Source of the DNA: Azonexus sp.
GTDB lineage: Bacteria; Pseudomonadota; Gammaproteobacteria; Burkholderiales; Rhodocyclaceae
Length of the DNA stretch: 64,000 nucleotides
Assembly (NCBI GenBank): GCA_017983755.1
Contig: JAGOAU010000006.1
Span: forward strand, 62,001-126,000
Reading direction: 5' to 3'
The notes beneath the pieces are model-generated. The model was given only the letters and a program-made list of their open reading frames with translations, searched no databases and was not told where the DNA came from. Positions within the stretch are counted from its first letter, which is position 1. Each line of letters opens with the position of its first letter. The position numbers were made by a program, and so were the translations under genes. Below are positions 2,631-61,750 of this stretch, in pieces.

Positions 2631-4607
2631 ATGGAAAACCCCGTCCCCGCCTGGATCCCTTCGCCGCAAACGATCGCCGACGCCAAGGTCACCGCCTTCA
2701 TCGGCTGGCTGACCCGCGAGCGCGGCATCACGCTGGCCGATTACGACGCCCTGTGGCGCTGGTCGGTCAGCGACATCGACGCCTTCTGGAGCGCCGTCTG
2801 GGATTATTTCGCCATCCCCTCGACCGCGCCGCGCGGCAAGGCGCTGGCCGACGCCCGCATGCCGGGCGCCGTGTGGTTCCCCGGCGTCGAGCTGAACTAC
2901 GTCGAACAGGTCTTCCGCCACGCCACCGACACCCGGCCGGCAATCGTCTTCCGTGACGAATCCGGCGCCGAGCGCGACGTGTCGTGGGCCGAGCTGCAGC
3001 GCCAGGTCGGCGCGCTGGCCGCCACGTTGCGCGCGCAGGGCGTCGGCCGCGGCGACCGCGTCGTCGCCTTCATGCCCAACATCCCCGAGTCGGTGATCGC
3101 CTTCCTCGCGGTCGCCGGCCTCGGCGCCATCTGGTCGGTGTGCTCGCCGGACATGGGCCGCGTCGCCGTACTCGACCGCTTCCGCCAGATCGCGCCGAAG
3201 GCGATGATCGCCGTCGACGGCTACCGCTACGGCGGCAAGGCGCACGACCGCCGGGCGCTGGTCGGCGAACTGCTCGGGGAGTTGCCGAGCGTCGAGCACC
3301 TCGTCCTCTTGCCGCAGCTCGACCCCGCGGCCGGCACCACCGGCTTCGCCAACGCGACGACCTGGGCCGACGCCACCGCCGGCAATGCACCGCTGGCGCC
3401 CGAACACGTGCCCTTCGACCACCCGCTGTGGGTCGTCTATTCGTCGGGCACCACCGGCCTGCCCAAGCCCATCGTCCATTCGCAGGGCGGCGTCGTCATC
3501 GAGCACCTGAAGGTGATCACCTTCCACCTCGACCTCGGCCCCGGCGACCGCTACCACTGGTACTCAACCACCGGCTGGATGATGTGGAACTTCCAGGTCG
3601 GCGGCCTGCTCGCCGGATGCACCATCTGTCTGTTCGACGGCAATCCCGGCACGCCGGACCTCAACGCGCTGTGGCGCTTCGTTGCCGACCAGCGCGTCGA
3701 CTTCTTCGGCGCCGGCGCCGCCTTCTACGCCTCGTGCCAGAAAGCCGGCATCGAGCCGACGCAGGCCGGCGACCTCTCCCGCCTGCGCGGCCTCGGCTCG
3801 ACCGGCTCGCCGCTGTCCCCGGAAAACTACCAGTGGCTGCTCGAACACGTGCGCCAGGATCTGTGGATCAACCCGATCTCGGGCGGCACCGACCTGGTCA
3901 GTGCTTTCATCGGCGGCGTGCCGACGCTGCCGATGATCCCCGGCGAAATGCAGTGCCGCTGCCTCGGCGCCAAGATCGAAGCCTTCGACGAGGCCGGCCA
4001 GCCACTGACCGACGCGGTCGGCGAACTGGTGTGCACCGCGCCGATGCCGTCGATGCCGCTCTATTTCTGGAACGACAAGGACAACCTGCGCTACATCGAC
4101 AGCTACTTCGACACCTTTCCCGGCATCTGGCGCCACGGCGACTGGCTGCGAATCACGCCGCGCGGCGGCGCCATCATCTACGGCCGCTCCGACGCGACGA
4201 TCAACCGCCACGGTATCCGCATGGGCACCAGCGAACTCTACCGCGCGGTCGAAGACCTGCCGGAAGTGCTCGACAGCATGGTCGTCGACCTCGAATACCT
4301 GGGCAAGGAATCCTACATGCCGTTGTTCGTGGTTTTGCGCCCTGGCGAGACGTTGACCGCAACACTCACCGCGACGATCCGCGAGCGCATCAAGGTCGCC
4401 CTGTCGGCCCGCCACGTGCCGAACGACATCTTCCAGGTACCGGCCATCCCGCGCACACTGACCGGCAAGAAGCTGGAACTGCCGATCAAGAAGCTGCTGC
4501 TCGGCCAGCCGCTGGAGAAGATCGTCAATCCGGACACCATGGCCAACCCGGAATGCCTCGCCTGGTACGGCGAGTATGCCGCCCGCCGGCAGCAGCAGGC
4601 GGCTTGA
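2631..4607 (+). CDS. acetoacetate--CoA ligase (acetoacetyl-CoA synthetase)
   Basis: The 658-residue enzyme of the ANL superfamily activates acetoacetate (and probably 3-hydroxybutyrate) to the CoA thioester with ATP, linking ketone bodies or PHB breakdown products to central metabolism. Evidence is the acetoacetyl-CoA synthetase N-terminal domain (ALWRWSVSDIDAFW), the P-loop YSSGTTGLPKPIVHSQGG near residue 270, the WYSTTGWMMWN block, GRSDATINRHGIRMGTSE of the hinge region, and the C-terminal lysine in LTGKKLELPIKK. Length is typical. A strong AAAGGAG ribosome site precedes the ATG, and a hairpin terminator follows. Confidence 0.92.
   Translation: MENPVPAWIPSPQTIADAKVTAFIGWLTRERGITLADYDALWRWSVSDIDAFWSAVWDYFAIPSTAPRGKALADARMPGAVWFPGVELNYVEQVFRHATDTRPAIVFRDESGAERDVSWAELQRQVGALAATLRAQGVGRGDRVVAFMPNIPESVIAFLAVAGLGAIWSVCSPDMGRVAVLDRFRQIAPKAMIAVDGYRYGGKAHDRRALVGELLGELPSVEHLVLLPQLDPAAGTTGFANATTWADATAGNAPLAPEHVPFDHPLWVVYSSGTTGLPKPIVHSQGGVVIEHLKVITFHLDLGPGDRYHWYSTTGWMMWNFQVGGLLAGCTICLFDGNPGTPDLNALWRFVADQRVDFFGAGAAFYASCQKAGIEPTQAGDLSRLRGLGSTGSPLSPENYQWLLEHVRQDLWINPISGGTDLVSAFIGGVPTLPMIPGEMQCRCLGAKIEAFDEAGQPLTDAVGELVCTAPMPSMPLYFWNDKDNLRYIDSYFDTFPGIWRHGDWLRITPRGGAIIYGRSDATINRHGIRMGTSELYRAVEDLPEVLDSMVVDLEYLGKESYMPLFVVLRPGETLTATLTATIRERIKVALSARHVPNDIFQVPAIPRTLTGKKLELPIKKLLLGQPLEKIVNPDTMANPECLAWYGEYAARRQQQAA
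4352..4363 (+). repeat. Dispersed 12-base word GTTGACCGCAAC, copy 1
   Basis: This perfect copy in acetoacetyl-CoA synthetase is read as Leu-Thr-Ala-Thr with the unusual codons TTG and GCA. All copies match GTYGACCGCAAC or its complement; see the findings for the full list. Confidence 0.7.
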
Positions 4608-4614
4608 TTCGGTG

Positions 4615-4644
4615 ATGTCGTTCCCGGTCGGCCGGGAACGACAT
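4615..4644 (+). terminator. Rho-independent-like terminator after acetoacetyl-CoA synthetase
   Basis: A perfect 13-base-pair stem (ATGTCGTTCCCGG with its complement CCGGGAACGACAT) encloses a 4-base loop seven bases after the stop codon, followed by a short T-rich TTGTCT. It marks the right edge of the core block before the integron. Confidence 0.75.
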
Positions 4645-4755
4645 TTGTCTTGGCCGAGGCGGCCCGGATTTGTCAGGGTGGCTCCCGATCGGGACGAGTC
4701 TCATCGGGTGGTATCGCCCCAAACCGGAACTAGCCAGCTTTGAAAAGTGGACAGT

Positions 4756-4826
4756 CAGGAACGTCTGAGTTCAGGGGCGCTGCGCGGCTTCATCGCGCAG
4801 CGTCCGGTGGAGTGACGGGTTAGGGC
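4756..4826 (-). repeat. attC-like recombination site of the distal integron cassette
   Basis: A core-site-like GTTAGGG at 4819-4825 faces a degenerate ...GGAAC at 4758-4762. The stretch between folds into a hairpin with a perfect 9-bp stem (CGCTGCGCG/CGCGCAGCG) and an unpaired A next to it, as in the extrahelical bases of attC sites. The brnA stop codon lies inside the right core. The left core is a poor match to RYYYAAC, so the outer end may be degraded. Confidence 0.6.
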
Positions 4827-5044: not shown

Positions 5045-5049
5045 GGTTT

Positions 5050-5328: not shown

Positions 5329-5344
5329 ACATACAGTGTATGTA
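5328..5344 (-). promoter_or_regulatory. Inverted repeat at brnT start, probable BrnA operator
   Basis: TACATAC and GTATGTA form a 7-bp inverted repeat around a 3-base centre, immediately upstream of and touching the brnT start codon. A palindrome here fits autoregulation by a ribbon-helix-helix antitoxin; binding is inferred. Confidence 0.5.
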
Positions 5345-5892: not shown

Positions 5893-5895
5893 AGG

Positions 5896-7053: not shown

Positions 7054-7444
7054 GTGATGATAAATGCGCCAGGCTGACGTTACCGGAATAACCGCTCTGC
7101 GGATGCAACTTCAGCCGGCCGCTGTTGGCCGATAGTGTGAGATCGAATACTTGCCCGTATGCCCGTCATTCAGGCATCAGTCACGGAAGGCAACCGCAGC
7201 ATTCGTGCCTCTTATGCCAAATGTCACATCGGCCAGGGGCGGACGTACGCCCATGCATCTGAAACCTGCCGGATACCCTACGCGAACAATTCGGCCTTTA
7301 CTGCCATTCGACGGACTGCTTACTTCGATCAGCAATAAAGGTCGCCCTCTTCGGGCGCGCCGCTTTTTCAGGGAGATTGAGAGGGGCCAGCCCGAGCGAT
7401 TTCTGGTGATTTTTTCGGTCGACCGGAGAAAGCACCCAAATCGC
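7054..7444 (+). other. Intergenic region between intI and hflX without a supported gene
   Basis: These 391 bases separate the convergent intI and hflX genes. An open frame of 144 codons from 7151 runs into the hflX antisense strand and shows no family features. A weak hairpin (CGCCC/GGGCG at 7343-7357) with a T-run at 7364-7368 could terminate intI. I see no attC-like pair or other gene. Confidence 0.5.
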
Positions 7445-10842: not shown

Positions 10843-12636
10843 TTACAGCATGTCGTCGGTGACTGCCGTCAGGCCTGCATCGCCAGCCATGACCGTGGCA
10901 GCACGCGACTGCGCCTGCGGCAGGATCTGCTCGGCGTAGAAACGGGCGGTGGCGATCTTGCCGCGGTAGAAGGCCGGATCGCCCTCGCCGCGGTCGAGAT
11001 AACCGGCCGCCGCCAGCGCCGCCTTGCCCATCAGCCAGCCGCCGCTGACGGCAACGGCGAGGTCGAGGTAGGGGACGGCTGCGGTCAACACGCCGGAAAT
11101 GCCCGATTTCGCATTGGCGAGGACCCAGTCGGTCGCTTCCTGCCAGGCCTTGAGGCCGGCGCCCAGGCGCTGGCCGATGGCCTGCAGGTCGGCGTGGTCG
11201 GCTTCGTTCAGCGCGCGGGCGGTGGCGGCAACCTCGGCGAAGACGACGCGCGCCGTGGCCCCCTGGTCGCGCATCAGCTTGCGGAAGATCAGGTCGTTGG
11301 CCTGGATGCCGGTCGTCCCCTCGTAGATCGTCGTGATCCGCGAATCGCGCCAGTGCTGGGCGGCCCCGGTTTCCTCGATGAAGCCCATGCCGCCGTGAAT
11401 CTGGATGCCGAGCGAAGTGACCTCGATGCCCATTTCTGTGCCGCCGCCCTTGACGATGGGAATCAGGAATTCGGCGAGGTACAGGTCGCGCTTCTTCTGC
11501 TCGGCGTCGCTGCCGGCGTGGGCGCGGTCGAGCAGGCCGGCAGCCATGTAGGTGGTCGCCCGGCAGGCTTCGACGCGGCTCTTCATCAGCATCAGCATGC
11601 GCCGGATGTCGGGGTGGTGGTCGATGGTGACCAGCGCTTCGCCGGTCACCGCGTCGCGCCCCTGCTTGCGCTCGCGGGCATAGCCCAGCGCCTGCTGGTA
11701 GGCGCGTTCGCCGAGGGCGACGCCCTGCAGGCCGACGCCCATGCGCGCCTCGTTCATCATGACGAACATGTATTCGAGGCCGCGGTTGGGCTCGCCAAGC
11801 AACCAGCCGGTCGCCCCGCCGTTGTCGCCGAAGGCGAGCACGGCGGTCGGGCTGGCGTGGATGCCGAGCTTGTGTTCGATCGACACGCACTGCACATCGT
11901 TGGCTGCGCCCAGGCTGCCGTCGGCGTTGACCATGAACTTCGGCACCAGGAACAGCGAGATGCCCCGGACGCCGGCCGGGGCATCCGGCAGGCGGGCGAG
12001 CACGAGGTGGACGATGTTGTCCGTCATGTCGTGGTCGCCGTAGGTGATGAAGATCTTCTGGCCGAAGACCTTGTAGCTGCCGTCAGCCTGCGGCTCGGCG
12101 CGCGAGCGGACGAGCGCGATGTCGGAGCCGGCCTGCGGCTCGGTCAGGTTCATTGTCCCGGTCCACTCGCCGGTCACCATCTTTTCCAGATAGGTTGCCT
12201 TCAACTCGTCGCTGGCGCAGGTCAGCAGCGCCAGGATGGCGCCGCCGGTCAACATCGGGCACAGCGAGAAGGCCATGTTGGCCGACGCCAGCATCTCCTT
12301 GACGGCGATGTTGAAGGTCTCGGGCAGACCCTGGCCGCCGAATTCGGCAGGCATCGCGAGGCCGTTCCAGCCGCCGTCGCAGAAGGCCTGGTAGGCATCC
12401 TTCCAGCCGTCCGGCGTGGTCACGCCGTCGGCGCCCAGCTTGCAGCCCTGCTGGTCGCCGCTGCGGTTGAGCGGGGCGAGCACGCCGCCGGCGAACTTGG
12501 CGGCCTCCTCGAGGATGGCGTCGGCCATGTCCGGCGTCGCCTCCTCGTAGCCCGGCAGTTGCGCGATGTCGGCAAGGCCGACGATCTCATCCATCACGAA
12601 ACGCATGTCCCTGACGGGTGCGCGGTAATCACTCAT
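10843..12636 (-). CDS. Acyl-CoA dehydrogenase with C-terminal extension
   Basis: The 597-residue FAD enzyme performs the first beta-oxidation step, acyl-CoA to trans-2-enoyl-CoA. It is longer than classical 380-residue forms, with an N-terminal helical segment (MRFVMDEIVGL) and a C-terminal domain of about 130 residues, as in the DmdC/FadE-like subgroup. Visible marks are MNLTEPQAGSD, KIFITYGDHD, and IQIHGGMGFIEE with the adjacent catalytic-glutamate region. It is the last gene of a four-gene operon (ligase, hydratase/dehydrogenase, thiolase, dehydrogenase) and is preceded by a ribosome site GGAGACA. Confidence 0.9.
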   Translation of the reverse strand: MSDYRAPVRDMRFVMDEIVGLADIAQLPGYEEATPDMADAILEEAAKFAGGVLAPLNRSGDQQGCKLGADGVTTPDGWKDAYQAFCDGGWNGLAMPAEFGGQGLPETFNIAVKEMLASANMAFSLCPMLTGGAILALLTCASDELKATYLEKMVTGEWTGTMNLTEPQAGSDIALVRSRAEPQADGSYKVFGQKIFITYGDHDMTDNIVHLVLARLPDAPAGVRGISLFLVPKFMVNADGSLGAANDVQCVSIEHKLGIHASPTAVLAFGDNGGATGWLLGEPNRGLEYMFVMMNEARMGVGLQGVALGERAYQQALGYARERKQGRDAVTGEALVTIDHHPDIRRMLMLMKSRVEACRATTYMAAGLLDRAHAGSDAEQKKRDLYLAEFLIPIVKGGGTEMGIEVTSLGIQIHGGMGFIEETGAAQHWRDSRITTIYEGTTGIQANDLIFRKLMRDQGATARVVFAEVAATARALNEADHADLQAIGQRLGAGLKAWQEATDWVLANAKSGISGVLTAAVPYLDLAVAVSGGWLMGKAALAAAGYLDRGEGDPAFYRGKIATARFYAEQILPQAQSRAATVMAGDAGLTAVTDDML

Positions 12637-13878: not shown

Positions 13879-16278
<2,400 letters not shown>

Positions 16279-16303
16279 GTTGTTCTCCGAATGGATGTTT
16301 CGA

Positions 16304-18913: not shown

Positions 18914-20341
18914 ATGTCCGCTTCCATTCCGCTCGTCAACGATGTGGCCACGCTCGATGCCGCGTTTGCGCGCATTCGCCAGGCCAGTCGCGCGGATCTG
19001 CCGGTGCCGGTGGCCGAACGGCGGCGGCGGCTCGATGCTCTGGAAGCACTGCTGCACGACAACATCGATGCACTCTGCAATGCGGTTTCTGCGGATTTCG
19101 GGCAGCGCTCGCAGCACGAAACCCGGTTGCTCGAAATCTTTCCCAGTGTCGAAGGCATCCGCCATACCCGCCGCCATCTCGCGCGCTGGAGCAAACCGCA
19201 GCGGCGCCCGGTATCGCTGTGGTTCCAGCCCGGCCGGGCCGAGGTGCGCCCGCAGCCGCTCGGCTGCGTCGGTATCGTGACGCCGTGGAATTATCCGATC
19301 TATCTCGCCATCGGCCCGCTGACCGCAGCCTTTGCCGCCGGCAACCGGGCGCTGGTGAAAATGTCCGAATTTACGCCGTCGACCGCAACCGTGCTGGCCG
19401 AGCTTGCCCGCCGCTATTTCACGGCCGACGAACTGGCGATCGTCGAAGGCGACATGGCCGTCGCCGAAGCCTTCTCCCGGCTGCCCTTCGATCACCTGTT
19501 GTTCACCGGCTCGACCGCCGTCGGCCGCCATGTCATGCGCGCCGCCGCCGAGCACCTGACGCCGGTGACCCTGGAACTCGGCGGCAAGTCGCCGGCCATC
19601 GTCGCCCCCGATTATCCGCTGGAGAAGGCCGCCGCCCGCATCCTGAGTGGCAAGTGCCTGAATGCCGGACAGACCTGCATCGCCCCGGATTACCTGTTCG
19701 TTCCGGCCGGGCAGGAACAAGCCTTCGCCGAGGCCGCACGCCGCGTCGTCGCCAAAAACTACCCGGACATCGCGCGCAACCCGGATTACACGGCCATCGT
19801 CAACGAACGCCACTACCAGCGCCTGAACGCCTACCTGGATGACGCCCGGGCGCGCGGCGCAACCCTGCTGCCGCTCGCCGCATGTCCACCCGAAGCCGCC
19901 GCCCGGCGCTGCCTGCCGCCGACGCTGATCTTCGGCGCGAACGACGAAATGCGGGTAATGCAGGACGAAATCTTCGGCCCCCTGCTCCCGGTGTTCACTT
20001 ACGACCGCCTCGACGACGCGCTGGCCTTCGTCAATAGCCGCGACCGGCCGCTGGCGCTCTACCTGTTCGACAACGACCGCCGGCGCATCCGCCACGTGCT
20101 CGACCACACCATAGCCGGCGGCGTCACGATCAACGACACCATCCTGCACATCGCGCAGGAGAACCTGCCCTTCGGCGGCGTCGGCCCGAGCGGCATGGGG
20201 CATTACCATGGCCACGAAGGCTTCCTGACCTTCTCCAAGCTGAAGCCGGTCTTCTACCAGGCACGGATCAACGGCATCGGCCTCTTCAACCCGCCCTACG
20301 GCAAGCTGTTCGAGCGCCTGCTCAAGGTCTTGCTGCGATGA
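18914..20341 (+). CDS. Coniferyl-aldehyde-dehydrogenase-like / fatty aldehyde dehydrogenase
   Basis: The 475-residue NAD(P)-dependent class 3-like aldehyde dehydrogenase resembles CalB. Active-site features are complete: TPWNYP with Asn126, ELGGKSP with Glu221, and GQTC with nucleophile Cys255. A C-terminal amphipathic stretch (ARINGIGLFNPPYGKLFERLLKVLL) could peripherally anchor it, as in class 3 fatty aldehyde dehydrogenases. CalB-like enzymes are often annotated coniferyl aldehyde dehydrogenase. With a GMC alcohol oxidoreductase, lipase and fatty acyl-CoA reductase adjacent, long-chain aldehydes are an equally reasonable substrate. It overlaps the next start by four bases (ATGA). Confidence 0.85.
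   Translation: MSASIPLVNDVATLDAAFARIRQASRADLPVPVAERRRRLDALEALLHDNIDALCNAVSADFGQRSQHETRLLEIFPSVEGIRHTRRHLARWSKPQRRPVSLWFQPGRAEVRPQPLGCVGIVTPWNYPIYLAIGPLTAAFAAGNRALVKMSEFTPSTATVLAELARRYFTADELAIVEGDMAVAEAFSRLPFDHLLFTGSTAVGRHVMRAAAEHLTPVTLELGGKSPAIVAPDYPLEKAAARILSGKCLNAGQTCIAPDYLFVPAGQEQAFAEAARRVVAKNYPDIARNPDYTAIVNERHYQRLNAYLDDARARGATLLPLAACPPEAAARRCLPPTLIFGANDEMRVMQDEIFGPLLPVFTYDRLDDALAFVNSRDRPLALYLFDNDRRRIRHVLDHTIAGGVTINDTILHIAQENLPFGGVGPSGMGHYHGHEGFLTFSKLKPVFYQARINGIGLFNPPYGKLFERLLKVLLR
19378..19389 (+). repeat. Dispersed 12-base word, copy 2 (GTCGACCGCAAC)
   Basis: It lies in the aldehyde dehydrogenase gene, read as Ser-Thr-Ala-Thr (residues 156-159). Confidence 0.7.
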
Positions 20342-23307: not shown

Positions 23308-23771
23308 AGCAGCGCCAGCACCTGCTCCCCGTGATCCGGACAATCCGGGTCGTCGATGATGTGGCTGATGCGGCCGTTCTCGTCGATGATGAAAGTGACC
23401 CGTTCGCTGAACTTGACGACGCTGCGCAGCAGGCTGCCAAGGCCGGAACCGGCGACGCCGTAGGCCTTGGCCACCGCCAGGTCGGTGTCCGCCAGCAAGG
23501 GAAAATTCAGGCTGAACTTGTCCGTGAAACGCTGGTGCGACTCGCTGCCCTGCGCCGAAACGCCGAGAATCGCCGCCCCGCGGGCAGCGATTTCGGCGTT
23601 CGAATCGCGCAGGCTGCACGCCTGTTTGGTACAGCCCGGCGTATCGTCCATCGGGTAGAAATACAGAACCAGTTTTCGCCCCAAAAAGTCGGTCGACCGC
23701 AACAGGCTGCCGTCGGTGGCCGGCGCCGCGAATTCCGGCGCCTGATCGCCGGGCTTGAGATGTGTCGCCAT
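23304..23771 (-). CDS. bcp: Peroxiredoxin, BCP/PrxQ type
   Basis: The 155-residue thiol peroxidase reduces H2O2 and organic or lipid hydroperoxides. The peroxidatic Cys47 and resolving Cys52 lie in DTPGCTKQACSLRD, the atypical two-cysteine PrxQ arrangement. Length is standard. Its ATG overlaps the stop codon of the upstream fatty acyl-CoA reductase gene by one base (TGATG on the coding strand), which couples their translation. A lipid-peroxide detoxifying role beside lipid synthesis is plausible. Confidence 0.92.
   Translation of the reverse strand: MATHLKPGDQAPEFAAPATDGSLLRSTDFLGRKLVLYFYPMDDTPGCTKQACSLRDSNAEIAARGAAILGVSAQGSESHQRFTDKFSLNFPLLADTDLAVAKAYGVAGSGLGSLLRSVVKFSERVTFIIDENGRISHIIDDPDCPDHGEQVLALL
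23692..23703 (+). repeat. Dispersed 12-base word, copy 4
   Basis: It lies in the peroxiredoxin gene, antisense to it; the gene reads it as Leu-Arg-Ser-Thr, a different frame from copies 1-3. Confidence 0.7.
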
Positions 23772-42417: not shown

Positions 42418-42795
42418 TCAAAGGCGCAACATCTCGATAACGTATTGCAATTCGGCGCGCAGGCCGCCAACGGTTTTTGGCATTTCCTGATGGTCGACCG
42501 CAACAGCCCCAGCCACATCACCTTCGTCCAGCTTGTTGCGCGCGCCGCTGATCGTAAAGCCCTGATTATAAAGAAGCTCACGGATGCGTCGAACGAGCAG
42601 GACTTCATGATGCTGGTAATAACGACGATTGCCGCGCCGTTTGACCGGCTTGAGCTGATTGAATTCCTGTTCCCAGTAGCGCAGGACGTGCGGCTTGACG
42701 CCGCACAATTCGCTGACTTCACCGATGGTGAAATAGCGCTTGGCCGGAATCGGTGGCAACTCCTCGCCACCGTGAGGCTTATGCCGCTGTTCCAT
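42418..42795 (-). CDS. MerR-family transcriptional regulator downstream of ihfA
   Basis: The 125-residue protein has an N-terminal winged helix-turn-helix of the MerR type ([60 protein letters not shown]). There are no effector-binding cysteines and only a short C-terminus. A MerR gene directly after ihfA (17-base overlap here) is a conserved pattern in beta- and gammaproteobacteria; the target is unknown. It contains a perfect copy of the 12-base dispersed word. Confidence 0.9.
42493..42504 (+). repeat. Dispersed 12-base word, copy 7
   Basis: It lies antisense in the merR gene, which reads it as Val-Ala-Val-Asp. Confidence 0.7.
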
Positions 42796-43095: not shown

Positions 43096-46582
<3,487 letters not shown>

Positions 46583-50009: not shown

Positions 50010-51314
50010 CTACGCCGCGAAGGCTGCGGTCAACGCGGCCACCATGTAGCCATGGTCGAGGACACCGGCGCTTTCGCGGATGCTGTGCATGGCCCACATC
50101 GGCGAGCCGACATCAACGCTCGCCACGCCGAGGCTGGCGGCGACGATGGGGCCGATGGTGCTGCCGCAGCCAAGATCAGTGCGATGCGCATAGTGCTGGT
50201 ACGGCACGCCTGCCTTCTCGCACAGCATGATGAAACGCGCCGCGCTGTCGGCGCCAGTGCTGTAGCGCTGGTTGGCGTTGATTTTGATCACCGGACCGCC
50301 GTTGACCACAACACGATGGCAGGGCTCGTAGGCCCCGGGGAAATTCGGGTTAAAGGCGTGCGCCATGTCGGCGCTGATGAAGAAACTGCGGGCCAGTGCA
50401 CAGCGATAGGCCTCGTCGTCGAGTCCGGCACACCCGGCAATCCGCCGCAGCACATCGGCGATGAAGCTGCCGCCGGCACCGGTGGCGCTTTCGCTGCCCA
50501 CCTCCTCGTGGTCGAAAAAGGCACAGACGTTGGTCGTCGCGGGATGTTCCGCAGCCAGCAGGGCAGCCAGCCCGGCATGGCAGGAAGCGAGGTTGTCCAG
50601 CTGGCTGTCGGCGATGAATTCCCGGCTCGCCCCCCAGAAGGCGCCCGGCTGCGCATCGCAGGCATTGAGTTCCCAACTCAGGATATCGTCGGCAGCGACG
50701 TCCAGTTGCGCCGCCAGCAGGGCATGGAAACGCCCGTCGGCAGCATCGCCCTCACCCGCCAGCCCTAGCACCAGGGGCAGTTCGGTCTGCTTGTTGAATT
50801 TGAGCCCGCTCTCGTTGACCTCGCGGTTCATGTGGATCGCCAGGTTCGGCAAGCGCAACAGCGGTTGCTGGAAATGCACCAGGCGTAGCGCCGGGCCGGT
50901 CGCGGTTCGCACGGCGACGCGCCCGGCCAGGCCCAGGTCGCGGTCGGCGAAGGTCGCCAGGATCGGCCCGCCGTACACCTCGACGCCAAGGCGCAGCAAG
51001 CCGTCGCCAGCCTGCAAGGCCCTGGGCTTCAAGCGCAGGCCGGGGGAATCCGTATGGGCGCCGACCAGCCTGAAGCCGCTTTCCGACAGCGCTGCGCTAC
51101 CGGCGACGAAAGCGATGATCGACGAGCCGCCACGAATCACGTAATAGCGCCCGCCGGCCGCCAGTTGCCAGCGCTCGTCCTCATTCAGGGCGACAAAGCC
51201 GCTGCCCCGCAGGCGCTCGGCAAGCGTCTGCACCGCATGCCACGGGCTGGGGCTGGCATCGATGAAAGCAAGGAGTTCCTGCGCCAGCGTGCGCGAATCG
51301 GCGGATATTTCCAT
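50010..51314 (-). CDS. apeB: M18-family aminopeptidase
   Basis: The 434-residue zinc aminopeptidase starts MEISADSRTLAQELLAFIDASPSPWHAVQTLAERL, the conserved M18 opening. Further marks are VGAHTDSPGLRLKP (first zinc histidine/aspartate), FFDHEEVGSESATGA (catalytic glutamates), SADMAHAFNPNFP and the C-terminal MWAMHSIRESAGV histidine. It removes N-terminal residues, often acidic ones, from peptides. The gene stands alone on the minus strand and is divergent from the small protein/slyX unit. Confidence 0.9.
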   Translation of the reverse strand: MEISADSRTLAQELLAFIDASPSPWHAVQTLAERLRGSGFVALNEDERWQLAAGGRYYVIRGGSSIIAFVAGSAALSESGFRLVGAHTDSPGLRLKPRALQAGDGLLRLGVEVYGGPILATFADRDLGLAGRVAVRTATGPALRLVHFQQPLLRLPNLAIHMNREVNESGLKFNKQTELPLVLGLAGEGDAADGRFHALLAAQLDVAADDILSWELNACDAQPGAFWGASREFIADSQLDNLASCHAGLAALLAAEHPATTNVCAFFDHEEVGSESATGAGGSFIADVLRRIAGCAGLDDEAYRCALARSFFISADMAHAFNPNFPGAYEPCHRVVVNGGPVIKINANQRYSTGADSAARFIMLCEKAGVPYQHYAHRTDLGCGSTIGPIVAASLGVASVDVGSPMWAMHSIRESAGVLDHGYMVAALTAAFAA

Positions 51315-51777: not shown

Positions 51778-52779
51778 GTGTCCGCCGCTCCGACCACCAT
51801 TCTCTACCATGCCGACTGCCCGGACGGTTTCGGCGCGGCCTACGCGGCGTGGCGTCGCTTTGGCGACACTGCCGCCTACCGCCCGATGCATCACGGTCAA
51901 CCGTGGGAAATGGCCGAAATTGCCGGACACACGGTATACATCCTCGATTTCTCGTTTCCGCCGGAAGTGCTGGAAGCGATGGCCGCCCGCGCCAGCGCGG
52001 TCATCCAGATCGATCACCACGCCTCGGCGCGCCGGCCATGGGCCGATCGCCTGACCAAAACGACGGACGGCGGCGAAAGCTGCCGGCATCAAGCGCTGCC
52101 GCTCACCGTGATCTTCGACCTCGGCAAATCGGGCGCCCGGCTGGCCTGGGAATACTTCCATCCGGCGGCGCCCTTGCCGCTCATCCTGCGCCATGTCGAA
52201 GACATGGATATGTGGCGTTTCGCACTGCCGGAAACGCGCGCCGTCGGACGTGCATTGCGCCTGCTTGCCTTCGATTTCACGGCCTGGCATGAACTGATCC
52301 AGAACACGCCAGATCCCGAAGCCCCGCGCTACAAGGCGCTCGTCGCCGAGGGGGAAGCCATCGAGCGCTTCTTCCGGATCGAGGTCGAGCGGCTGGCGCA
52401 CAGCCGTCTCGTCATGGCGGCGCAGCTGCGCGGCGAACCGGTCGATTCCTTGCAGGTTCGGCGCCACGGCCTGCCGACGATCATCGACGAAGAGCATGCC
52501 TGGCGCGCAGTCGAGGGTCTGGCGATCAACGCCAGCGTGCTGTTCGCATCCGAATTGGGCAACCAGCTTGCCGAACGCAGCGGCACCTTCGGCCTGGTCT
52601 GGCAACTCGACGCGGACGGCGAAGCGAAGTGTTCCTTGCGCTCGAAGGGAAACGTCGATGTAGCGGAAATCGCTACCCGCTACGGTGGCGGCGGACACCC
52701 GAACGCCGCCGGTTTCCGCCTGCTGTTCGCCCGTTTTGCGAGCGAAATTCTCGGCAAATTATGTTATAAATCAGATTAA
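51778..52779 (+). CDS. DHH-family phosphoesterase
   Basis: The 333-residue protein shows the N-terminal DHH layout: YHADCPDGFGAAYAAW with the first metal-binding Asp, DFSFPPEVLEAM, the IQIDHHASA signature, and a C-terminal DHHA1-like GGGHPNAAGFRL. Family members are nanoRNases, pAp phosphatases or cyclic-di-nucleotide phosphodiesterases; this subgroup's substrate is unknown to me. The start is GTG 51778. It is co-directional with slyX. Confidence 0.87.
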   Translation: MSAAPTTILYHADCPDGFGAAYAAWRRFGDTAAYRPMHHGQPWEMAEIAGHTVYILDFSFPPEVLEAMAARASAVIQIDHHASARRPWADRLTKTTDGGESCRHQALPLTVIFDLGKSGARLAWEYFHPAAPLPLILRHVEDMDMWRFALPETRAVGRALRLLAFDFTAWHELIQNTPDPEAPRYKALVAEGEAIERFFRIEVERLAHSRLVMAAQLRGEPVDSLQVRRHGLPTIIDEEHAWRAVEGLAINASVLFASELGNQLAERSGTFGLVWQLDADGEAKCSLRSKGNVDVAEIATRYGGGGHPNAAGFRLLFARFASEILGKLCYKSD

Positions 52780-52953: not shown

Positions 52954-53763
52954 ATGTCCGTCGATCACTACGAAAACTTCCCCGTAGCTTCCTTCCTCGT
53001 CCCGGCGCCGCTGCGTCGGCCGATCGAGGTGATCTACCGTTTCGCCCGCAGCGCGGACGATATCGCCGACGAAGGCGACGCCTCGCCCGAGGAACGCCTG
53101 GCCGGGCTGGCGGCATACCAGGCGGAACTCGACCGCATTGCCGCCGGCGCCGCGCCGCAGACGCCGCTGTTTCTTGCGCTGGCCGATGTCATCCACCGGC
53201 ATGGGTTGCCGCTTCAGCTATTCCGCGACCTGCTCGACGCCTTCGCCCAGGATGTCGTCAAGAAACGCTACGCCGACTATCCGGAACTGCTCGACTACTG
53301 CCGCCGTTCGGCTAACCCGGTCGGCCGCCTGGTGCTGCATCTGTTCGACCGCACCGAGCCGGAACATCTGGAGCAATCCGACTGCATCTGCACGGCGCTG
53401 CAACTGATCAACTTCTGGCAGGATGTTGCGGTCGACTGGCAAAAGGACCGTGTTTACATCCCGCAGACCGATTTTCCGCACTTCAGGGTGGGTGAAGCCG
53501 ACATCGCCGCCGGCCGCTGGTCGGCCAACTGGGCAGCGCTGATGGATTTCGAGATCGACCGGGCGCAGGCCCTGATGCGGCGAGGCGCCCCGCTGGTCCA
53601 CGCCCTGCCCGGCCGCCTCGGCTGGGAAATCCGCCTGACCGTCCAGGGCGGCCTGCGCATCCTCGAACGCATCCGCCAGGTACGCGGCGACGTCTTCCAG
53701 CGCCGCCCGCAGCTTGGCAAAAGGGACTGGCTGGTGCTCGCCGGCCGTTCCCTTACAATGTGA
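52954..53763 (+). CDS. hpnC: HpnC, squalene synthase-type enzyme of hopanoid synthesis
   Basis: The 269-residue prenyl-transfer-fold protein has two aspartate-rich regions, DDIADEGD and NFWQDVAVDWQKDR. In the HpnCDE route HpnC converts presqualene diphosphate to hydroxysqualene. It begins hpnC-hpnD-hpnE and a run that continues into pgaABCD. The second Asp-rich region coincides with a perfect copy of the dispersed 12-base word (53425). Confidence 0.93.
   Translation: MSVDHYENFPVASFLVPAPLRRPIEVIYRFARSADDIADEGDASPEERLAGLAAYQAELDRIAAGAAPQTPLFLALADVIHRHGLPLQLFRDLLDAFAQDVVKKRYADYPELLDYCRRSANPVGRLVLHLFDRTEPEHLEQSDCICTALQLINFWQDVAVDWQKDRVYIPQTDFPHFRVGEADIAAGRWSANWAALMDFEIDRAQALMRRGAPLVHALPGRLGWEIRLTVQGGLRILERIRQVRGDVFQRRPQLGKRDWLVLAGRSLTM
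53425..53436 (-). repeat. Dispersed 12-base word, copy 8
   Basis: It lies in hpnC in reverse orientation, read as Val-Ala-Val-Asp beside the second Asp-rich motif. Confidence 0.7.
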
Positions 53764-53767: not shown

Positions 53768-54601
53768 ATGAATCCCCATCAATACTGCCAGGAGAAATGC
53801 GCCGCCAGCGGCTCCTCCTTCTATTACAGCTTCCTTTTCCTGCCCCCCGAGCGCCGGCAAGCCATCATGGCGCTCTACGCCTTCTGCCGCGAAGTCGATG
53901 ACGTCGTCGACGAATGCAACGATATTTCGATCGCGTCGACCAAGCTGACTTGGTGGCGCCAGGAAGTCGAGCGCGTCACCGGCGGCCAGCCGACGCATCC
54001 GGTGGGATTGGCGCTGCAGGCGGTGAGCGGCCAGTTCAACCTGCCGAAGGAGCAATTGCTGGAAATCATCGACGGCATGGAGATGGACCTGCAGCAGTCG
54101 CGCTATCTCGACTTCAAGAACCTGTCGCTCTACTGCTATCGCGTTGCCAGCGTCGTCGGCCTGCTCGCCGCCGAGATCTTCGGCTACCAGGACCGGCAAA
54201 CGCAGAAATACGCCCACGACCTCGGCATGGCCTTCCAGCTCACCAACATCATCCGCGACATTGGCGAGGATGCCCGGCGCGGCCGCATCTACCTCCCGAT
54301 GGATGAGCTCAAGCAGTTCAACGTGCCGGCCGCCGACATCCTGAACGCCAAATACTCGGACAATTTCACCGCCCTGATGCAGTTCCAGGCCGAGCGCGCC
54401 GAGAAATACTACGCCCAGGCTTTTGCCCAGTTGCCGGCCGTCGACCGCAAGCGCCAGCGCCCCGGCCTGATCATGGCGGCTATCTACCGCACCCTGCTCG
54501 ACGAGATCAAGCGCGAAAACTTCCAGGTTCTGCACCAGCGCATCGCCCTGACGCCGGTGCGCAAGCTCTGGATCGCCTGGAAAACCTGGGCCTTCGCGTG
54601 A
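53768..54601 (+). CDS. hpnD: HpnD, presqualene diphosphate synthase
   Basis: The 277-residue enzyme condenses two farnesyl diphosphates to presqualene diphosphate. Motifs are SFYYSFLFLPPERRQAIMALYAFCREVDDVVDE (first Asp-rich) and LTNIIRDIGEDARRGRIYLP (second). ATG 53768 (MNPHQYCQEKC) is chosen; it lies four bases after hpnC. Its end overlaps hpnE by four bases (GTGA). Confidence 0.94.
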   Translation: MNPHQYCQEKCAASGSSFYYSFLFLPPERRQAIMALYAFCREVDDVVDECNDISIASTKLTWWRQEVERVTGGQPTHPVGLALQAVSGQFNLPKEQLLEIIDGMEMDLQQSRYLDFKNLSLYCYRVASVVGLLAAEIFGYQDRQTQKYAHDLGMAFQLTNIIRDIGEDARRGRIYLPMDELKQFNVPAADILNAKYSDNFTALMQFQAERAEKYYAQAFAQLPAVDRKRQRPGLIMAAIYRTLLDEIKRENFQVLHQRIALTPVRKLWIAWKTWAFA

Positions 54602-55836
54602 AAGTCGCCGTCATCGGCGGCGGCTGGGCGGGCATCGCCGCCGCTGTCGAACTGACGGCAAGCGGCGCCACCACCACCCTGTACGAAGCCGGCCGTGCCC
54701 TCGGCGGACGGGCGCGCTCGATTGCCATCGACGGCCGCACACTGGATAACGGCCAGCACATTCTGCTCGGCGCCTACCGCGACACGCTGGCCCTGATGCG
54801 CCAGGTCGGCGCCGACCCCGAACTGCTGCTGGAACGACGCCCGCTGCAGGTCGTCGATCACACCGGCTTCCGTCTGGCGCTGCCGAAATGGCCGGCGCCG
54901 CTCAACGTCGCCTGGGGCCTGCTGTCGGCCCGCGGCGTCGGCTGGCGCGAAAAGCTGGCGACCGCCTGGTGGATGCAGGGCATCAAGGCTCGCCGTTTCC
55001 GCCTGGACGAGGATTGCAGTGTCGCCGAATGGCTGGACGCCGCCGGCCAGACCGGCGCCTTGCGCCACCACCTGTGGGAACCGCTCTGCCTCGCCGCGCT
55101 CAACATCCCCGCCGGGCGCGCCTCGGCCCAGGTCTTCGCCAACGTGCTGCGCGACAGCCTGGGCAGCGCCCGGCGCGAAGATACCAATCTGCTGCTGCCG
55201 CGCGTCGCCCTGGGGCAACTGCTGCCGGAACCGGCGACACGCTGGTTCGCGGCCAGCGGTGCGACGCTGCGCCTCGGCCACCGTGTCGCCAACTTCGCCC
55301 CGCTACCGCATGGCATCGCGGTCGATGGCGAAATCCACGATGCTGCGGTCGTCGCCACCGCCCCGCAGCACGCCGGCAAACTATGGCCGGCGCTCGCCGC
55401 CGATTTCGATCACGAGCCAATCGTTACGGTCTACCTACAATTCGCGGCAAAAACCAGTCTCGCCTTTCCCCTGCAAAAGCAGTCCGGAAACTACGGTCAA
55501 TGGGTCGTCGACCGCGGCAATGGCCTGCTCGCCTGCGTGCTCAGCGGCCATGGCGACTGGGAAGCCCTCGCCGAAGCCGAACTGGTCGCCGCGCTCGTCG
55601 CGGAACTCGCCCTGCCGACGCTGCCCACCTGGACCAGGGTCATCTGCGAGAAGCGCGCCACCTTCGCCTGTCGCCCGAACCTCGCGCGCCCCGATCACCG
55701 CACGCCCGACCCGCGCATCCTGCGCGCCGGCGACTACAGCTGGGCCGATTACCCGGCGACGCTGGAAGGCGCCGTGCGCAGCGGCCGCCGCGCTGCCCAC
55801 GCCCTGCTTCGAAATGGCTATAATCCGGCGTCATGA
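54598..55836 (+). CDS. hpnE: HpnE, hydroxysqualene dehydroxylase
   Basis: The 412-residue FAD-dependent amine-oxidase-fold enzyme reduces hydroxysqualene to squalene, ending the HpnCDE route. The FAD motif is VIGGGWAGIAAAVELTASG with YEAGRALGGRARS, and the C-terminal FAD contact is AGDYSWADYPATLEGAVRSGRRAA. The start is GTG. A squalene-hopene cyclase is not in the window, so the final hopanoid steps must be elsewhere if present. Its stop overlaps the pgaA ATG. Confidence 0.93.
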   Translation: MKVAVIGGGWAGIAAAVELTASGATTTLYEAGRALGGRARSIAIDGRTLDNGQHILLGAYRDTLALMRQVGADPELLLERRPLQVVDHTGFRLALPKWPAPLNVAWGLLSARGVGWREKLATAWWMQGIKARRFRLDEDCSVAEWLDAAGQTGALRHHLWEPLCLAALNIPAGRASAQVFANVLRDSLGSARREDTNLLLPRVALGQLLPEPATRWFAASGATLRLGHRVANFAPLPHGIAVDGEIHDAAVVATAPQHAGKLWPALAADFDHEPIVTVYLQFAAKTSLAFPLQKQSGNYGQWVVDRGNGLLACVLSGHGDWEALAEAELVAALVAELALPTLPTWTRVICEKRATFACRPNLARPDHRTPDPRILRAGDYSWADYPATLEGAVRSGRRAAHALLRNGYNPAS

Positions 55837-57845
55837 ACCGTCTGCGCCCCGTCCTGCTGCTCTCCATCGGCCTCGCTGCCACGGCCGTCGACGCCGGCGA
55901 GGAGTGGGTAATGCCGCCCCGGGCGAAGTACGCCGTTCCGTCCCCTGCCCCGGTTGTCGTCGGCGAGGACTGGGCCGTAAAACTCGGCCAGCAACTCACC
56001 CTCCTGAAACAGCAGCCGGATAACCGCGGCGCGCGCAAGGCCGCCTGGGTCGCCGCCATGCGCCTCGGCCTCTTCGCCCAGGCTGCCGCGCTGGAAGCAC
56101 CGCTGTCGGCCGACGAGCGCCGGGCGATGGAGGGCGACCGCATCGCCCTCGACATCCGCTACGGCATCGTCGACCGCAACACCCTGCGCGGACCGGAACG
56201 CTTTTTGCACCTCGACCAGGCGTTGACCGCAACCGACCCGCTCGCCGCCGAATTTTTCGCCGGCAAGGCGCCGGATGCCGAAGACCAGCGCCGCCTGACC
56301 GACCGCCTCAGCGCGCTGGCCGCCCGCCGCCGCGCCGCCGATGCGGTCGAGCTCTACGAAACCCTGCGCCGGCGCGACATCCCCGTGCCGTTGTGGGCCG
56401 AGCGCGACATCGCCGGCAGCTACCTCGAATTGCGCCGCCCGCAGGAAGCGCTGGCCCTCTACCAACGGGTGGTCGACGCCAACCCGGACGATTTCGACGC
56501 CAACCTCGGCCTTTTCTACGCGCTCGTCGAAACCGAGCAACTCGACGCCGCCACCGAACACATCGACCGCTTCGCCGCCCAACTGCCGGAACGCCGCCAC
56601 CTCGACGGCCGCTACAACGGCGAGCGTCTGAGCGCCGACATCACGGCGGACCGCGTGCGCCTCTTCGCCGACCGCCTCGCCGAAGCGCAGGCCCGCATCG
56701 ACGCCCGCCAAGACACCATCCCCTACAACAGCGAGGCGCGCCAGTCCTCAGCCAGCCTCGCCCTGGCCCGCGGCTGGCCGCGGCAGGGCGACGAGATGCT
56801 GCGCCGCACGCTTGGCTCCGATCCGATCAACCCGGCGCTGCACGCCGACCTTTCCGAAAACCGCCTGACCCTCCAGGACTGGCCGGCTGCCCGCGCCGCG
56901 CTCGACTACGCCACCGGCCTCGACCCGGACAACGGCGCCGTGCGCCGCGCCCGCCGTAGTTACGAGCTGTACGACAGCTACGAACTCTATATCGAAGCCG
57001 GCTACGGCGAAGGCCAGGACGTCAATTACTTCGGCAGCCGCGACTGGTCGATCGACAGCTTTCTCTACAGCCGCCCGCTTGACGACAACTGGCGAGTCTT
57101 CGCCCACAACTATTCCGCCAGCGCGGATTTCTATGGCGAAAAACAGACCTGGATCCGCAGCGGCGCCGGTGCCGAATGGCGCCACCTCGGCTGGCGGCTG
57201 ACCGGCGAGATGAATGGCGGCAGCGGCGTCAAGGCCGGCGCCACCGGCACCGCGCGCTGGAAGCCCGACGACTACTGGACCTTTTACGGCGGTGCCGAAA
57301 GCGTGACCAACCAGATCCCGCTGCGCGCCGTTGCCGACGGTATTTACGCCAGCCGGGTCAGCCTCGGCACCGACTGGCAGCAGAACGAATCGCGCAAGCT
57401 GGCACTCGGCGTGTTTTCCAGCGACTTCTCCGACGGCAACCTGCGCACCGGCGTCAACACCGCGTGGTTCGAGCGCTGGGCCAGCGGGCCGAAATGGATG
57501 TTCGAGACCACCCTTGGCGCCGACGCCTCGCGCAATTCGCTGGATACCAGCGTTAATTACTTCAACCCGAAAAGCGACCGTTCCCTGTGGTTGACCGCAG
57601 CCGTCGAAAACCTCACCTGGCGCAGCTACGACCACGCCTTCCGCCAGCGCCTGGCGCTGACCGGCGGCACCTACTGGCAGGAAGGCTACGACGCCGGCGC
57701 CATCGAGGCCATCGAATACAGCCACCGCTGGGAACTCGACCGCGATCTCTCGCTGCGCTACGGCATCGGCCGTATGCTGCGCCCCTACGATGGCGAACGC
57801 GAAGGACGCACCTTCGCCAACCTGGTCCTGCTATGGCGCTTCTGA
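55833..57845 (+). CDS. pgaA: Poly-beta-1,6-GlcNAc export porin PgaA
   Basis: The 670-residue outer-membrane protein has a signal peptide (about 1-21), a periplasmic TPR region (about 60-360; EALALYQRVVDANPDDFDANLGLFYAL) and a C-terminal beta-barrel of alternating aromatic strands ending in Phe (LVLLWRF). E. coli PgaA is about 807 residues; the reduction is mainly in the TPR part. It exports deacetylated poly-GlcNAc. It overlaps hpnE by four bases and pgaB by 13, and it carries two copies of the dispersed word 53 bases apart. Confidence 0.9.
   Translation: MNRLRPVLLLSIGLAATAVDAGEEWVMPPRAKYAVPSPAPVVVGEDWAVKLGQQLTLLKQQPDNRGARKAAWVAAMRLGLFAQAAALEAPLSADERRAMEGDRIALDIRYGIVDRNTLRGPERFLHLDQALTATDPLAAEFFAGKAPDAEDQRRLTDRLSALAARRRAADAVELYETLRRRDIPVPLWAERDIAGSYLELRRPQEALALYQRVVDANPDDFDANLGLFYALVETEQLDAATEHIDRFAAQLPERRHLDGRYNGERLSADITADRVRLFADRLAEAQARIDARQDTIPYNSEARQSSASLALARGWPRQGDEMLRRTLGSDPINPALHADLSENRLTLQDWPAARAALDYATGLDPDNGAVRRARRSYELYDSYELYIEAGYGEGQDVNYFGSRDWSIDSFLYSRPLDDNWRVFAHNYSASADFYGEKQTWIRSGAGAEWRHLGWRLTGEMNGGSGVKAGATGTARWKPDDYWTFYGGAESVTNQIPLRAVADGIYASRVSLGTDWQQNESRKLALGVFSSDFSDGNLRTGVNTAWFERWASGPKWMFETTLGADASRNSLDTSVNYFNPKSDRSLWLTAAVENLTWRSYDHAFRQRLALTGGTYWQEGYDAGAIEAIEYSHRWELDRDLSLRYGIGRMLRPYDGEREGRTFANLVLLWRF
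56169..56180 (+). repeat. Dispersed 12-base word, copy 9
   Basis: It lies in pgaA, read as Val-Asp-Arg-Asn, a further reading frame. Confidence 0.7.
56222..56233 (+). repeat. Dispersed 12-base word, copy 10
   Basis: It lies in pgaA 53 bases after copy 9, read as Leu-Thr-Ala-Thr; the two copies are in different frames of one gene. Confidence 0.7.
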
Positions 57846-60654: not shown

Positions 60655-61100
60655 TCATCGAGCGGCCCGACCTCGCGCACCCGCTGCGGCGGGCAATCGG
60701 GCTGTTTGTGACGGTACTCGCCTGGCTGCTCTGGCTGGCGATGTGGATCCCGTTTCTCGCGGCGCTCGGCCGCTATCTCGGCTACGACCTGCCGGAAATC
60801 TATTTCCCGAGCCAGATCAGCCTCCACTCGTTTCTCTCGCTGGTCAATATCCTGCCGACGGTAGTCGGCATTGCCGTTGCATTGGTGATGGCCAGCTATC
60901 TCAGGGAAAAAATGAAATCCCGCGCCGACCAGCGCGACGAGCGCTGGCGCCCGGTCGGCGTCGAGCGCCTGGCAACCGGCCTGGCACTCGATCCCGAACG
61001 TCTCGCCGCCTGGCAGGCAGCCCAGGTGCTCTACGTGGCGCACGGCCCGCTCGGCCGCGTCACCGACGCCAGCACGACTCAGCCCAGCCGCCCCGACTGA
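60609..61100 (+). CDS. pgaD: PgaD-like subunit of the poly-GlcNAc synthase
   Basis: The 163-residue inner-membrane protein has two hydrophobic helices (about 28-55 and 74-95) and a charged cytoplasmic C-terminus. Sequence conservation of PgaD is low; the call rests on size, the IIERPDL-type opening before the first helix and position after pgaC (46-base overlap). In E. coli PgaC and PgaD together bind c-di-GMP. It is convergent with and overlaps the ybbA end by 22 bases. Confidence 0.85.
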   Translation: MDESRPRHQTRRLPLIIERPDLAHPLRRAIGLFVTVLAWLLWLAMWIPFLAALGRYLGYDLPEIYFPSQISLHSFLSLVNILPTVVGIAVALVMASYLREKMKSRADQRDERWRPVGVERLATGLALDPERLAAWQAAQVLYVAHGPLGRVTDASTTQPSRPD

Positions 61101-61750
61101 ATCCGCAGTACCCGCCCGCAGCGCGCGGCGATCGCTTCGTCGTGGGTGACGAGCACCAGCGTCGTGCCCTGCTTCGTGTTGAGGTCGAACATCATATCGA
61201 TGATCTGCTGCCCAGTCGCCGCATCGAGGTTGCCGGTCGGCTCGTCGGCCAGTACCAGCCGCGGGTTCGGCGCGAAGGCGCGGGCCAGCGCGACGCGCTG
61301 CTGCTCGCCGCCCGACAGATGTTTCGGATAGTGCTTCAGGCGGTGCTCCAGCCCGACACGCACCAGCCAGTCGCGGGCAGTTGCGGTCGACGTCCGCGAA
61401 CCGGCCAATTCCAGCGGCAGCATGACGTTCTCCAGCGCCGTCAGCGACGGCAGCAGTTGGAAGGACTGGAAAACGAAGCCGAGCAGCTTGCCGCGCTGGC
61501 GCGCCCGCTCGTCTTCGTCGAGCGCCGCCAGCGAGACGCCGTCGAGACGGATTTCGCCGGCCGTGGGAACATCCAGCCCGGCCAGCAGACCAAGCAGGGT
61601 CGACTTGCCCGAGCCCGAGGCGCCGACGATGGCAACCGTTTCTCCCGGCATGACCGAAAAGGAAATATCCTGCAGAATCGTCAGCGGCTCGCCGCCGTTA
61701 TCCACCGTCTTGCCCAACGCCAATACTTCAACCACCGGTTTTTCCATCAT
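61079..61750 (-). CDS. ybbA: ABC transporter ATP-binding protein, YbbA/LolD family
   Basis: The 223-residue ATPase has Walker A GASGSGKST, the Q-loop FQSFQLLPSLTALENV, the signature LSGGEQQRVALARA, Walker B LVLADEPTGNLD and H-loop VTHD, all typical of the LolD/MacB/YbbA group. Pairing with divergent tesA and then selU copies the E. coli ybbA-tesA-ybbB order and supports YbbA. The permease partner is not in the window. A GTTGCGGTCGAC-type word copy lies inside. The ATG at 61750 overlaps the tesA ATG by two bases. Confidence 0.88.
   Translation of the reverse strand: MMEKPVVEVLALGKTVDNGGEPLTILQDISFSVMPGETVAIVGASGSGKSTLLGLLAGLDVPTAGEIRLDGVSLAALDEDERARQRGKLLGFVFQSFQLLPSLTALENVMLPLELAGSRTSTATARDWLVRVGLEHRLKHYPKHLSGGEQQRVALARAFAPNPRLVLADEPTGNLDAATGQQIIDMMFDLNTKQGTTLVLVTHDEAIAARCGRVLRIQSGRLG
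61380..61391 (-). repeat. Dispersed 12-base word, copy 11
   Basis: It lies in ybbA; the gene strand reads GTCGACCGCAAC as Ser-Thr-Ala-Thr. Confidence 0.7.

Follow-up and report, generated by a model that had tools for sequence, protein, structure and literature searches.

The 12-base word GTYGACCGCAAC is dispersed over a 64,000-nucleotide stretch of DNA from Azonexus sp. (hereafter, the window), which corresponds to positions 62001-126000 of contig C17 in a draft genome of 2,515,346 bases that is 74% complete (G000). This word makes up the core, about a third, of a signal of approximately 33 bp that carries two AT tracts, and this signal is most likely a DNA uptake signal sequence, the uptake role being putative. 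The word was originally noticed by inspection of the window alone, and an uptake-type signal, a HIP1-like repeat, and a protein or methylation site were offered as explanations. The uptake signal fits best because the sites are of mixed orientation, include AT tracts, form dialects and seem to originate by substitution, and because two inserted elements lack the word of one dialect, whereas a HIP1-like repeat would be a short palindrome rather than an asymmetric 33-bp motif. The original prediction took the 12-base word as the unit; its enrichment stands, and the tracts and the dialects had been missed.

The window contains 11 exact copies of the word, all at the previously listed coordinates and strands, compared to an expectation of 0.04, in line with the earlier estimate of far fewer than one copy by chance; none of 100 dinucleotide shuffles produced 11. 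With at most one mismatch allowed, there are 28 matches versus 0.88 expected, including all ten near-copies that had been named and seven others (2022, 29249, 29851, 43838, 49602, 50301 and 63756). The genome-wide count that had been proposed as a check confirms the excess: the draft has 349 exact copies, split 177/172 between the forward and reverse strands, whereas the word written backwards is found 5 times. For a codon-level null model, 462 kb of G000 (the window and loci L092-L111) were subjected to 60 rounds of synonymous codon shuffling. Of the 59 copies in this sequence, 39 are in genes and 20 elsewhere, where genes are those predicted by a simple caller (coding fraction 0.79), such that some non-gene copies may sit in missed genes. 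Because the 39 in-gene copies compare with a mean of 1.3 and a maximum of 4 in the shuffled sequences, coding constraint is not the cause of the excess, as had been argued from the reading frames; similarly, the word GTYGACCGCARC occurs 74 times within genes, compared to 2.4 under shuffling. Copies that number in the hundreds or more, in both orientations and far above chance, are typical of uptake sequences.

Alignment of the copies revealed an upstream T tract, and the whole motif emerged when the flanks were widened and the opposite strand was read. In this orientation, the G000 motif (dialect 1) comprises GTTGCGGTCRAC and, on its 3' side, two AT tracts, 11 bp apart and separated by a GC-rich gap. 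Tract 1 spans positions 17-21 (56-83% AT) and tract 2 positions 28-32 (84, 98, 98, 95 and 64% AT) in 99 sites, against a background of 36% AT in this genome of 64% GC; the uptake signal sequences of Pasteurellaceae likewise have two AT segments 3' of their core, spaced by roughly one turn of the helix. The sites of a relative, G020, show the same two-tract layout (n=31), and there is little conservation beyond about 35 bp. At least four of the five letters of tract 2 are A or T in 70 of 76 in-gene sites and in all 23 other sites. In the window, the tract is directly visible in all sites except the exact copy at 56169, which, together with the near-copy at 50023, is absent from the 38 motif matches. 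A weight matrix trained on G000 detects 237 sites in the 462 kb at a loose cut-off (score 12), compared to 9 in a Markov shuffle; the in-gene matches number 193 versus 54.7 in synonymous shuffles at this cut-off, and 156 versus 24.4 at a stricter one (score 16). The same sequence contains four overlapping inverted pairs of cores, each with an offset of exactly 4 bp and a common GTCGAC (GTTGCGGTCGACCGCAAC type).

A PheT search among named genomes identified Azonexus and Dechloromonas as the nearest relatives of the window, in agreement with the earlier guess of a member of Rhodocyclales. The exact word occurs 2-479 times in 59 other genomes of this genus versus 0-14 times in 40 genomes from 40 other families of the order. 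Among 48 named genomes, GTYGACCGCARC is abundant only in members of the Azonexus/Dechloromonas genus, with 0-23 copies in Azospira, Propionivibrio, Accumulibacter, Zoogloea, Thauera, Azoarcus, Aromatoleum and Rhodocyclus. Within the genus, at least 100 copies of GTYGACCGCARC are found in 32 of 76 genomes (the reversed control reaches at most 12) and at least 100 copies of the dialect-2 word CCGGTTGACCGT in 10 of 76, their union being 34 genomes; G000, G020, G022, G040 and G057 are rich in the former and contain 0-8 copies of the latter.

Word counts in 100-kb samples from 12 genomes uncovered several dialects that have CGGTCRAC in common. Dialect 1a is GTTGCGGTCRAC; dialect 1b is GCTGCGGTCRAC (G031, G029, G059, G033 and G014, in which few CARC words end in AAC); dialect 2, in G104, G111, G002 and others, is CCACGGTCAACCGGAAAAA..ggCCAAAaTT.AAA, a motif of 44 bits with AT tracts at positions 13-18, 24-29 and 31-34 (n=91); and a third dialect consists only of CGGTCRAC and tract 2 (G038 and G102, with 69 sites per 111 kb each). 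The inner core is GCGG in dialects 1a and 1b and ACGG in dialect 2, with no fixed letter before CGG in the third. A weak pattern resembling dialect 2 is seen in G047, with 12 sites in 111 kb. Motif training on G034 and G100 drifts to codon periodicity and yields no motif, and in G043 nothing convincing was obtained; G034 and G100 are near-empty close relatives, with 2 core-plus-tract matches in 116 kb and 1 in 133 kb, respectively. Altogether, 41 of the 59 assessable genomes bear a dialect and 18 do not, the motif state of the other 17 being unknown. As a gauge of motif absence, the 12-mer was discarded: it undercounts, given that A. fungiphilus, MAG.149, HJP_bin19, STC_94, G038 and G102 bear other dialects. 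A survey of pheT loci, a small sample of one locus (8.7-22 kb) per genome, found cores accompanied by AT at the position of tract 2 to be common in Azonexus and Dechloromonas, including A. fungiphilus and others missed by the 12-mer, and found no such combination in other genera except for a single match in Propionivibrio limicola.

A quick PheT tree was built from 59 genus rows and 3 outgroups; it excludes G106 and other genomes that lack a complete PheT, and 19 of its 59 inner branches have less than 80% support. In this tree, dialect 1 spans the two main clades and also appears in G023, which branches at the root of the genus. Strong dialect 2 (at least 97 copies) is confined to one nested group of 11 rows, 10 of which carry it; its absence from the remaining one, G034, presumably reflects loss. 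Dialect 1 is therefore probably ancestral. Eight gains or losses of the motif suffice to account for its distribution. Clade-specific dialects around a conserved inner core are, again, a property of uptake sequences.

Comparison of the 33-bp sites with their counterparts in relatives across the pheT region, in which the comparisons overlap in sites and are not independent, bears on the origin of the sites. Among 587 comparisons for dialect 1, 458 differ by substitutions only, 124 include small gaps, 4 show no difference and a single one looks like an insertion; among 124 for dialect 2, the respective numbers are 94, 15, 15 and 0. Judging from these alignments, sites arise by substitution, not by insertion. 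Of five window words compared in each of the motif-rich genomes G020, G022 and G040, 4, 3 and 3 are kept, respectively, versus a fraction of 0.18-0.25 for any 12-mer; in the motif-poor G100 and G018, 0 of 4 are kept.

The genus also carries competence machinery. Matches to ComEC were detected in 75 of 76 genomes (68 above the cut-off), and pilins of the ComP_DUS family and of the FimT/GspH type in 70 and 69, respectively. Assignment of the comEC state by hand from the match table gave 55 intact, 12 broken and 9 unclear genes, the broken set including G054 and G034, in which adjoining pieces lie in different frames and could reflect sequence errors; G054 has 364 dialect-2 words. Broken genes occur in 8 of 15 motif-poor genomes, compared to 4 of 38 that bear the motif (Fisher p 0.002, with 17 of the 76 genomes left out for an unknown motif state and 6 for an unclear comEC). 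In ten genomes, stretches of 2-64 kb interrupt comEC within a single contig, at several points of the gene; in others, the pieces are on different contigs. The gene is an apparent repeated target of large mobile elements, as expected if such elements benefit from turning competence off. The GC content of four sampled inserted stretches is 0.515-0.58. In 77 kb of elements inserted into comEC (43 kb in G111 and 34 kb in G002), CCGGTTGACCGT is absent, compared to 23 copies in 160 kb elsewhere in the same genomes, and GTTGACCGT occurs once, compared to 37 times outside. Scarcity in recently inserted elements, another trait of uptake sequences, is accordingly seen in two genomes, in elements of lower GC content.

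Uptake-signal systems are named only for Neisseriaceae and Pasteurellaceae in the portions of the literature drawn on here. The uptake signal sequence (USS) of the Hin type is described there as a GCGGT core followed in the 3' direction by two AT segments, with about one turn of the helix between them; it occurs in both orientations, often in genes, and arises by point mutation (PMC1626085, PMC12616744). The relevant excerpts further indicate that the inner core GCGG is essential and the AT tracts contribute (PMC7811141), that the pilin ComN/PpdA, with a FimT-like structure, is the predicted receptor (PMC12616744), and that DNA binding by Legionella FimT involves arginines of a conserved GRxR motif (PMC8897410). 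The Azonexus motif shares with Hin-USS the TGCGGT in the core and the two phased 3' tracts, as well as the presence of sites in both orientations, with many in genes, and the apparent point-mutation origin. However, its core, GTTGCGGTCRAC, differs in the flanks from AAGTGCGGT of Hin-USS, its tracts start further from the core, its density is lower, its host is a betaproteobacterial lineage unlike the Pasteurellaceae, and dialect 2 has ACGG instead of GCGG; neither of the 9-bp Pasteurellaceae cores, AAGTGCGGT and ACAAGCGGT, is found at the sites, where the core is GTTGCGGTCRAC or one of its dialects. Because core flanks, tract offset, density and lineage differ, the motif is neither the Hin nor the Apl USS, but probably works like one.

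The DNA uptake sequence (DUS) of Neisseriaceae offers a second comparison. According to the sections cited, DUS dialects follow clades around the invariant inner core CTG (PMC12616744), genomic islands lack DUS (PMC7371117), and known systems have about 1 site per kb, with no flanking motifs in the case of DUS (PMC1626085). The Azonexus motif likewise forms clade-following dialects around an inner core, is scarce in inserted DNA and is found in genomes with ComP_DUS-family pilins. The cores are nevertheless unrelated, CGGTCRAC containing no CTG, and the Azonexus motif has flanking tracts where DUS has none. In contrast to the DUS/ComP pair, the ComP_DUS matches of the genus do not follow the motif, being present also in motif-poor genomes and located within general minor-pilin operons.

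For the uptake function, the receptor and the mechanism of spread, we infer the following scheme. In the type IV competence pilus, a minor pilin or a tip protein able to read sequence would bind the core, GTTGCGGTCRAC in this species, along with both AT tracts, which are one helical turn apart on its 3' side. Retraction of the pilus would bend the DNA at the tracts and draw it into the periplasm, whereupon ComEC would pass one strand inward for recombination. Because fragments with good sites would be taken up preferentially, sites created by point mutation would spread and build up until the genome labels its own kind. Shifts in receptor preference would give rise to clade-specific dialects, and sites would decay once competence is lost. 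More tentatively, this could be a complete and independent uptake system with a Haemophilus-like physical design, that is, a GCGGT-type core, a pilus-tip pilin and two phased AT tracts where the DNA bends into the secretin. If so, a GspH/FimT-type receptor for GCGGT would be older than the Pasteurellaceae or would have been transferred; alternatively, the mechanics of drawing looped DNA through the pore of the pilus would make this architecture evolve repeatedly.

Several other explanations have to be weighed against an uptake signal. Chromosome-organising proteins that bind dispersed sites are exemplified by SlmA, Noc and MatP. Sites for such a protein, or for a nucleoid protein, selected for position or number, would account for the resemblance of the motif to an extended protein-binding site whose AT tracts are in phase with the helix and for a spacing slightly more even than chance (variance/mean 0.72, or some 1.8 standard deviations, in 91 windows of 5 kb); still, this appears unlikely in view of site numbers that run from hundreds to about a thousand in a genome, with many sites within genes, the lack of the dialect-2 word in inserted elements and the lack of a significant association between strand and GC skew, and both several dialects in one genus and near-absence from the G034 and G100 samples would be odd for an essential function. 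HIP1 of cyanobacteria is a short palindrome that is over-represented and dispersed through genes. A word of this kind, or a product of methylation, repair or mutation bias, could explain a strong excess of a short GC-rich word on both strands of genes; however, HIP1 lacks phased tracts, whereas the motif described here is asymmetric and far longer, with tracts of up to 98% AT held at a fixed distance, in genes as well, and with dialects that vary in both core and tracts, which makes such an origin highly improbable.

Even less credible is a dispersed small mobile element similar to repetitive extragenic palindromic (REP) sequences or miniature inverted-repeat transposable elements (MITE). Dialect 2 is indeed long and strong, and more than half of the CCGGTTGACCGT copies examined (30 of 53) are not in called genes; yet the near-complete lack of insertion-like gaps (1 of 587 and 0 of 124 comparisons), with no sign in these of REP or MITE insertion into empty sites, contradicts this possibility, and conservation fades past the motif. 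A polar guide such as the FtsK-orienting polar sequences (KOPS) or Chi, which the original prediction already doubted because of the mixed orientation, can be given hardly any weight. A frequency of one site per several kb would suit such a guide, and the G000 samples show a slight lean (12 forward and 31 reverse sites at positive skew, 26 and 32 elsewhere) that is not significant (Fisher p 0.10). But the two strands are almost equally represented in G000 and in G020 (332/338) and are mixed inside single 20-kb samples, with reverse copies present in those of G104 and G020, the association with skew is also non-significant in G020 (p 0.41) and in the dialect-2 set (p 0.18), and the strand bias along replichores that characterises KOPS and Chi was not detected in these local samples.

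A number of observations weigh against the uptake signal itself. Once the codon-shuffle background is subtracted, the density falls from 1 site per 1.9 kb to about 1 per 2.5 kb, below that of known systems, and codon usage alone predicts more than a quarter of the in-gene matches at the loose cut-off (54.7/193). The conservation in relatives that had been proposed as a check holds for G020, G022 and G040 but is incomplete overall, with 18 of 47 aligned window words kept over all 17 relatives and 0 of 9 in the motif-rich, more distant G010, G033, G050 and G112. No comEC was found in the window's own draft, which is 74% complete; the gene is intact in 7 of 15 motif-poor genomes, and among five independent pairs on the tree, an average of 0.8 agree with the association and 0.1 run against it, too few to decide whether it holds. 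The elements in comEC contain the looser GTYGACCG (6 versus 65 outside), and their GC content of 0.56 and 0.52, compared to 0.61 in the surroundings, by itself lowers the expected count. The open-licence papers in PMC yielded no report of natural transformation in Azonexus or Dechloromonas.

The receptor poses a further difficulty: no single candidate emerged from the distribution of pilins or from comparison of operons. For both ComP_DUS-family and FimT/GspH-type pilins, co-occurrence gives no pointer to the receptor, as they are present whatever the motif, in motif-poor genomes too. The best solved relatives of the ComP_DUS-family pilin of G000 (C23:109378-109623, with an adjoining GspH/FimT-type pilin gene) are of the PilA/PilE type, with no chain named ComP among 17 matches, and the type of the minor-pilin operon does not track the dialect (13 and 21 loci compared). 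A gene near this pilin is presumably ispH-like. The minor-pilin operon (L111-L131) is a fast-shuffling locus that occurs in two gene orders and changes location between relatives, adjoining either what we take to be an ispH-lspA-ileS-like block or a small gene next to genes presumably involved in arginine biosynthesis.

Azonexus and Dechloromonas are known from wastewater and for perchlorate and nitrate reduction. An uptake signal in this group points to present or recent natural transformation there and, if confirmed, would add a further bacterial group with tags on self-DNA; in the open-licence PMC papers, with part of the motif-word matches assessed by title, no report of these words or of uptake sequences in Rhodocyclaceae was found. 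An environmental lineage rich in dialects, with motif-bearing and motif-poor relatives, would allow comparative tests of how uptake specificity evolves, which protein is the receptor and what the AT tracts do. The motif could also be used to tag DNA for the transformation of these strains and to recognise foreign islands in their genomes.

Table 1. Motif sites in the window, overlapping core pairs and interrupted comEC genes. Sites are 33 bp long, and the strand is that of the GTTGCGG reading; of the 38 window matches at score 12, the 24 with a score of at least 20 are given, together with the exact copy that lacks tract 2.
Feature	Location	Strand	Remarks
Extended site with exact copy 4352	4331..4363	-	Score 30.0; within open reading frame (ORF) 2631-4607
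Extended site, CGGTCGAC core and tract	7397..7429	-	Score 21.9; no called gene there
Extended site, core GCTGCGGTCAAC	11078..11110	+	Score 30.0; within ORF 10843-12636
Extended site overlapping inverted copy at 14800	14785..14817	-	Score 27.4
Extended site	15929..15961	+	Score 34.5; within ORF 13879-16428
Extended site with exact copy 19378	19357..19389	-	Score 36.4, top in window
Extended site, exact copy	21795..21827	+	Score 24.2; within ORF 20820-22430
Extended site with exact copy 23692	23671..23703	-	Score 25.5; no called gene there
Extended site, inverted overlapping pair 25541(-)/25547(+)	25526..25558	-	Score 29.5
Extended site with exact copy 28224	28203..28235	-	Score 25.8
Extended site, variant core GTTACGGTCTAC	35547..35579	+	Score 22.0
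Extended site with exact copy 36549	36528..36560	-	Score 28.5; word kept in G020, G022, G040
Extended site with 39970	39949..39981	-	Score 29.8; word kept in G020, G022, G040, G015
Extended site with exact copy 42493	42472..42504	-	Score 33.4; word kept in G057, G020, G051
Extended site, core GCTACGGTCAAC	45911..45943	-	Score 25.8
Extended site, one-mismatch copy 50301	50280..50312	-	Score 26.1
Extended site, core ATCACGGTCAAC	51890..51922	+	Score 22.8
Extended site, exact copy	53425..53457	+	Score 25.4; word kept in G020, G022, G040, G059, G042, G052, G008, G051
Extended site, one-mismatch copy 54440	54419..54451	-	Score 26.4
Extended site, variant core GTTACGGTCTAC	55423..55455	+	Score 23.7
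Extended site, core GCCGCGGTCGAC	55486..55518	-	Score 25.7
Exact 12-mer without tract 2	56169..56180	+	Not among the 38 motif matches
Extended site with exact copy 56222	56201..56233	-	Score 21.6
Extended site, one-mismatch copy 57590	57569..57601	-	Score 26.7
Extended site, exact copy	61380..61412	+	Score 31.6; no gene from the simple caller there
Overlapping inverted pairs	Window 14802/14806 and 25543/25547; L096:10258; L102:6680		
comEC split by inserted stretch	G100:C1:3064248-3130284		
comEC split by inserted stretch	G111:C1:2720194-2765330		
comEC split by inserted stretch	G002:C33:109264-144789		
comEC split by inserted stretch, further genomes	G043, G103, G005, G056, G018, G035, G028		

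Three of the copies and near-copies in the window (56169, 56222 and 57590) fall within a single gene, at 55833-57845, that encodes a PgaA-type poly-N-acetylglucosamine export porin.

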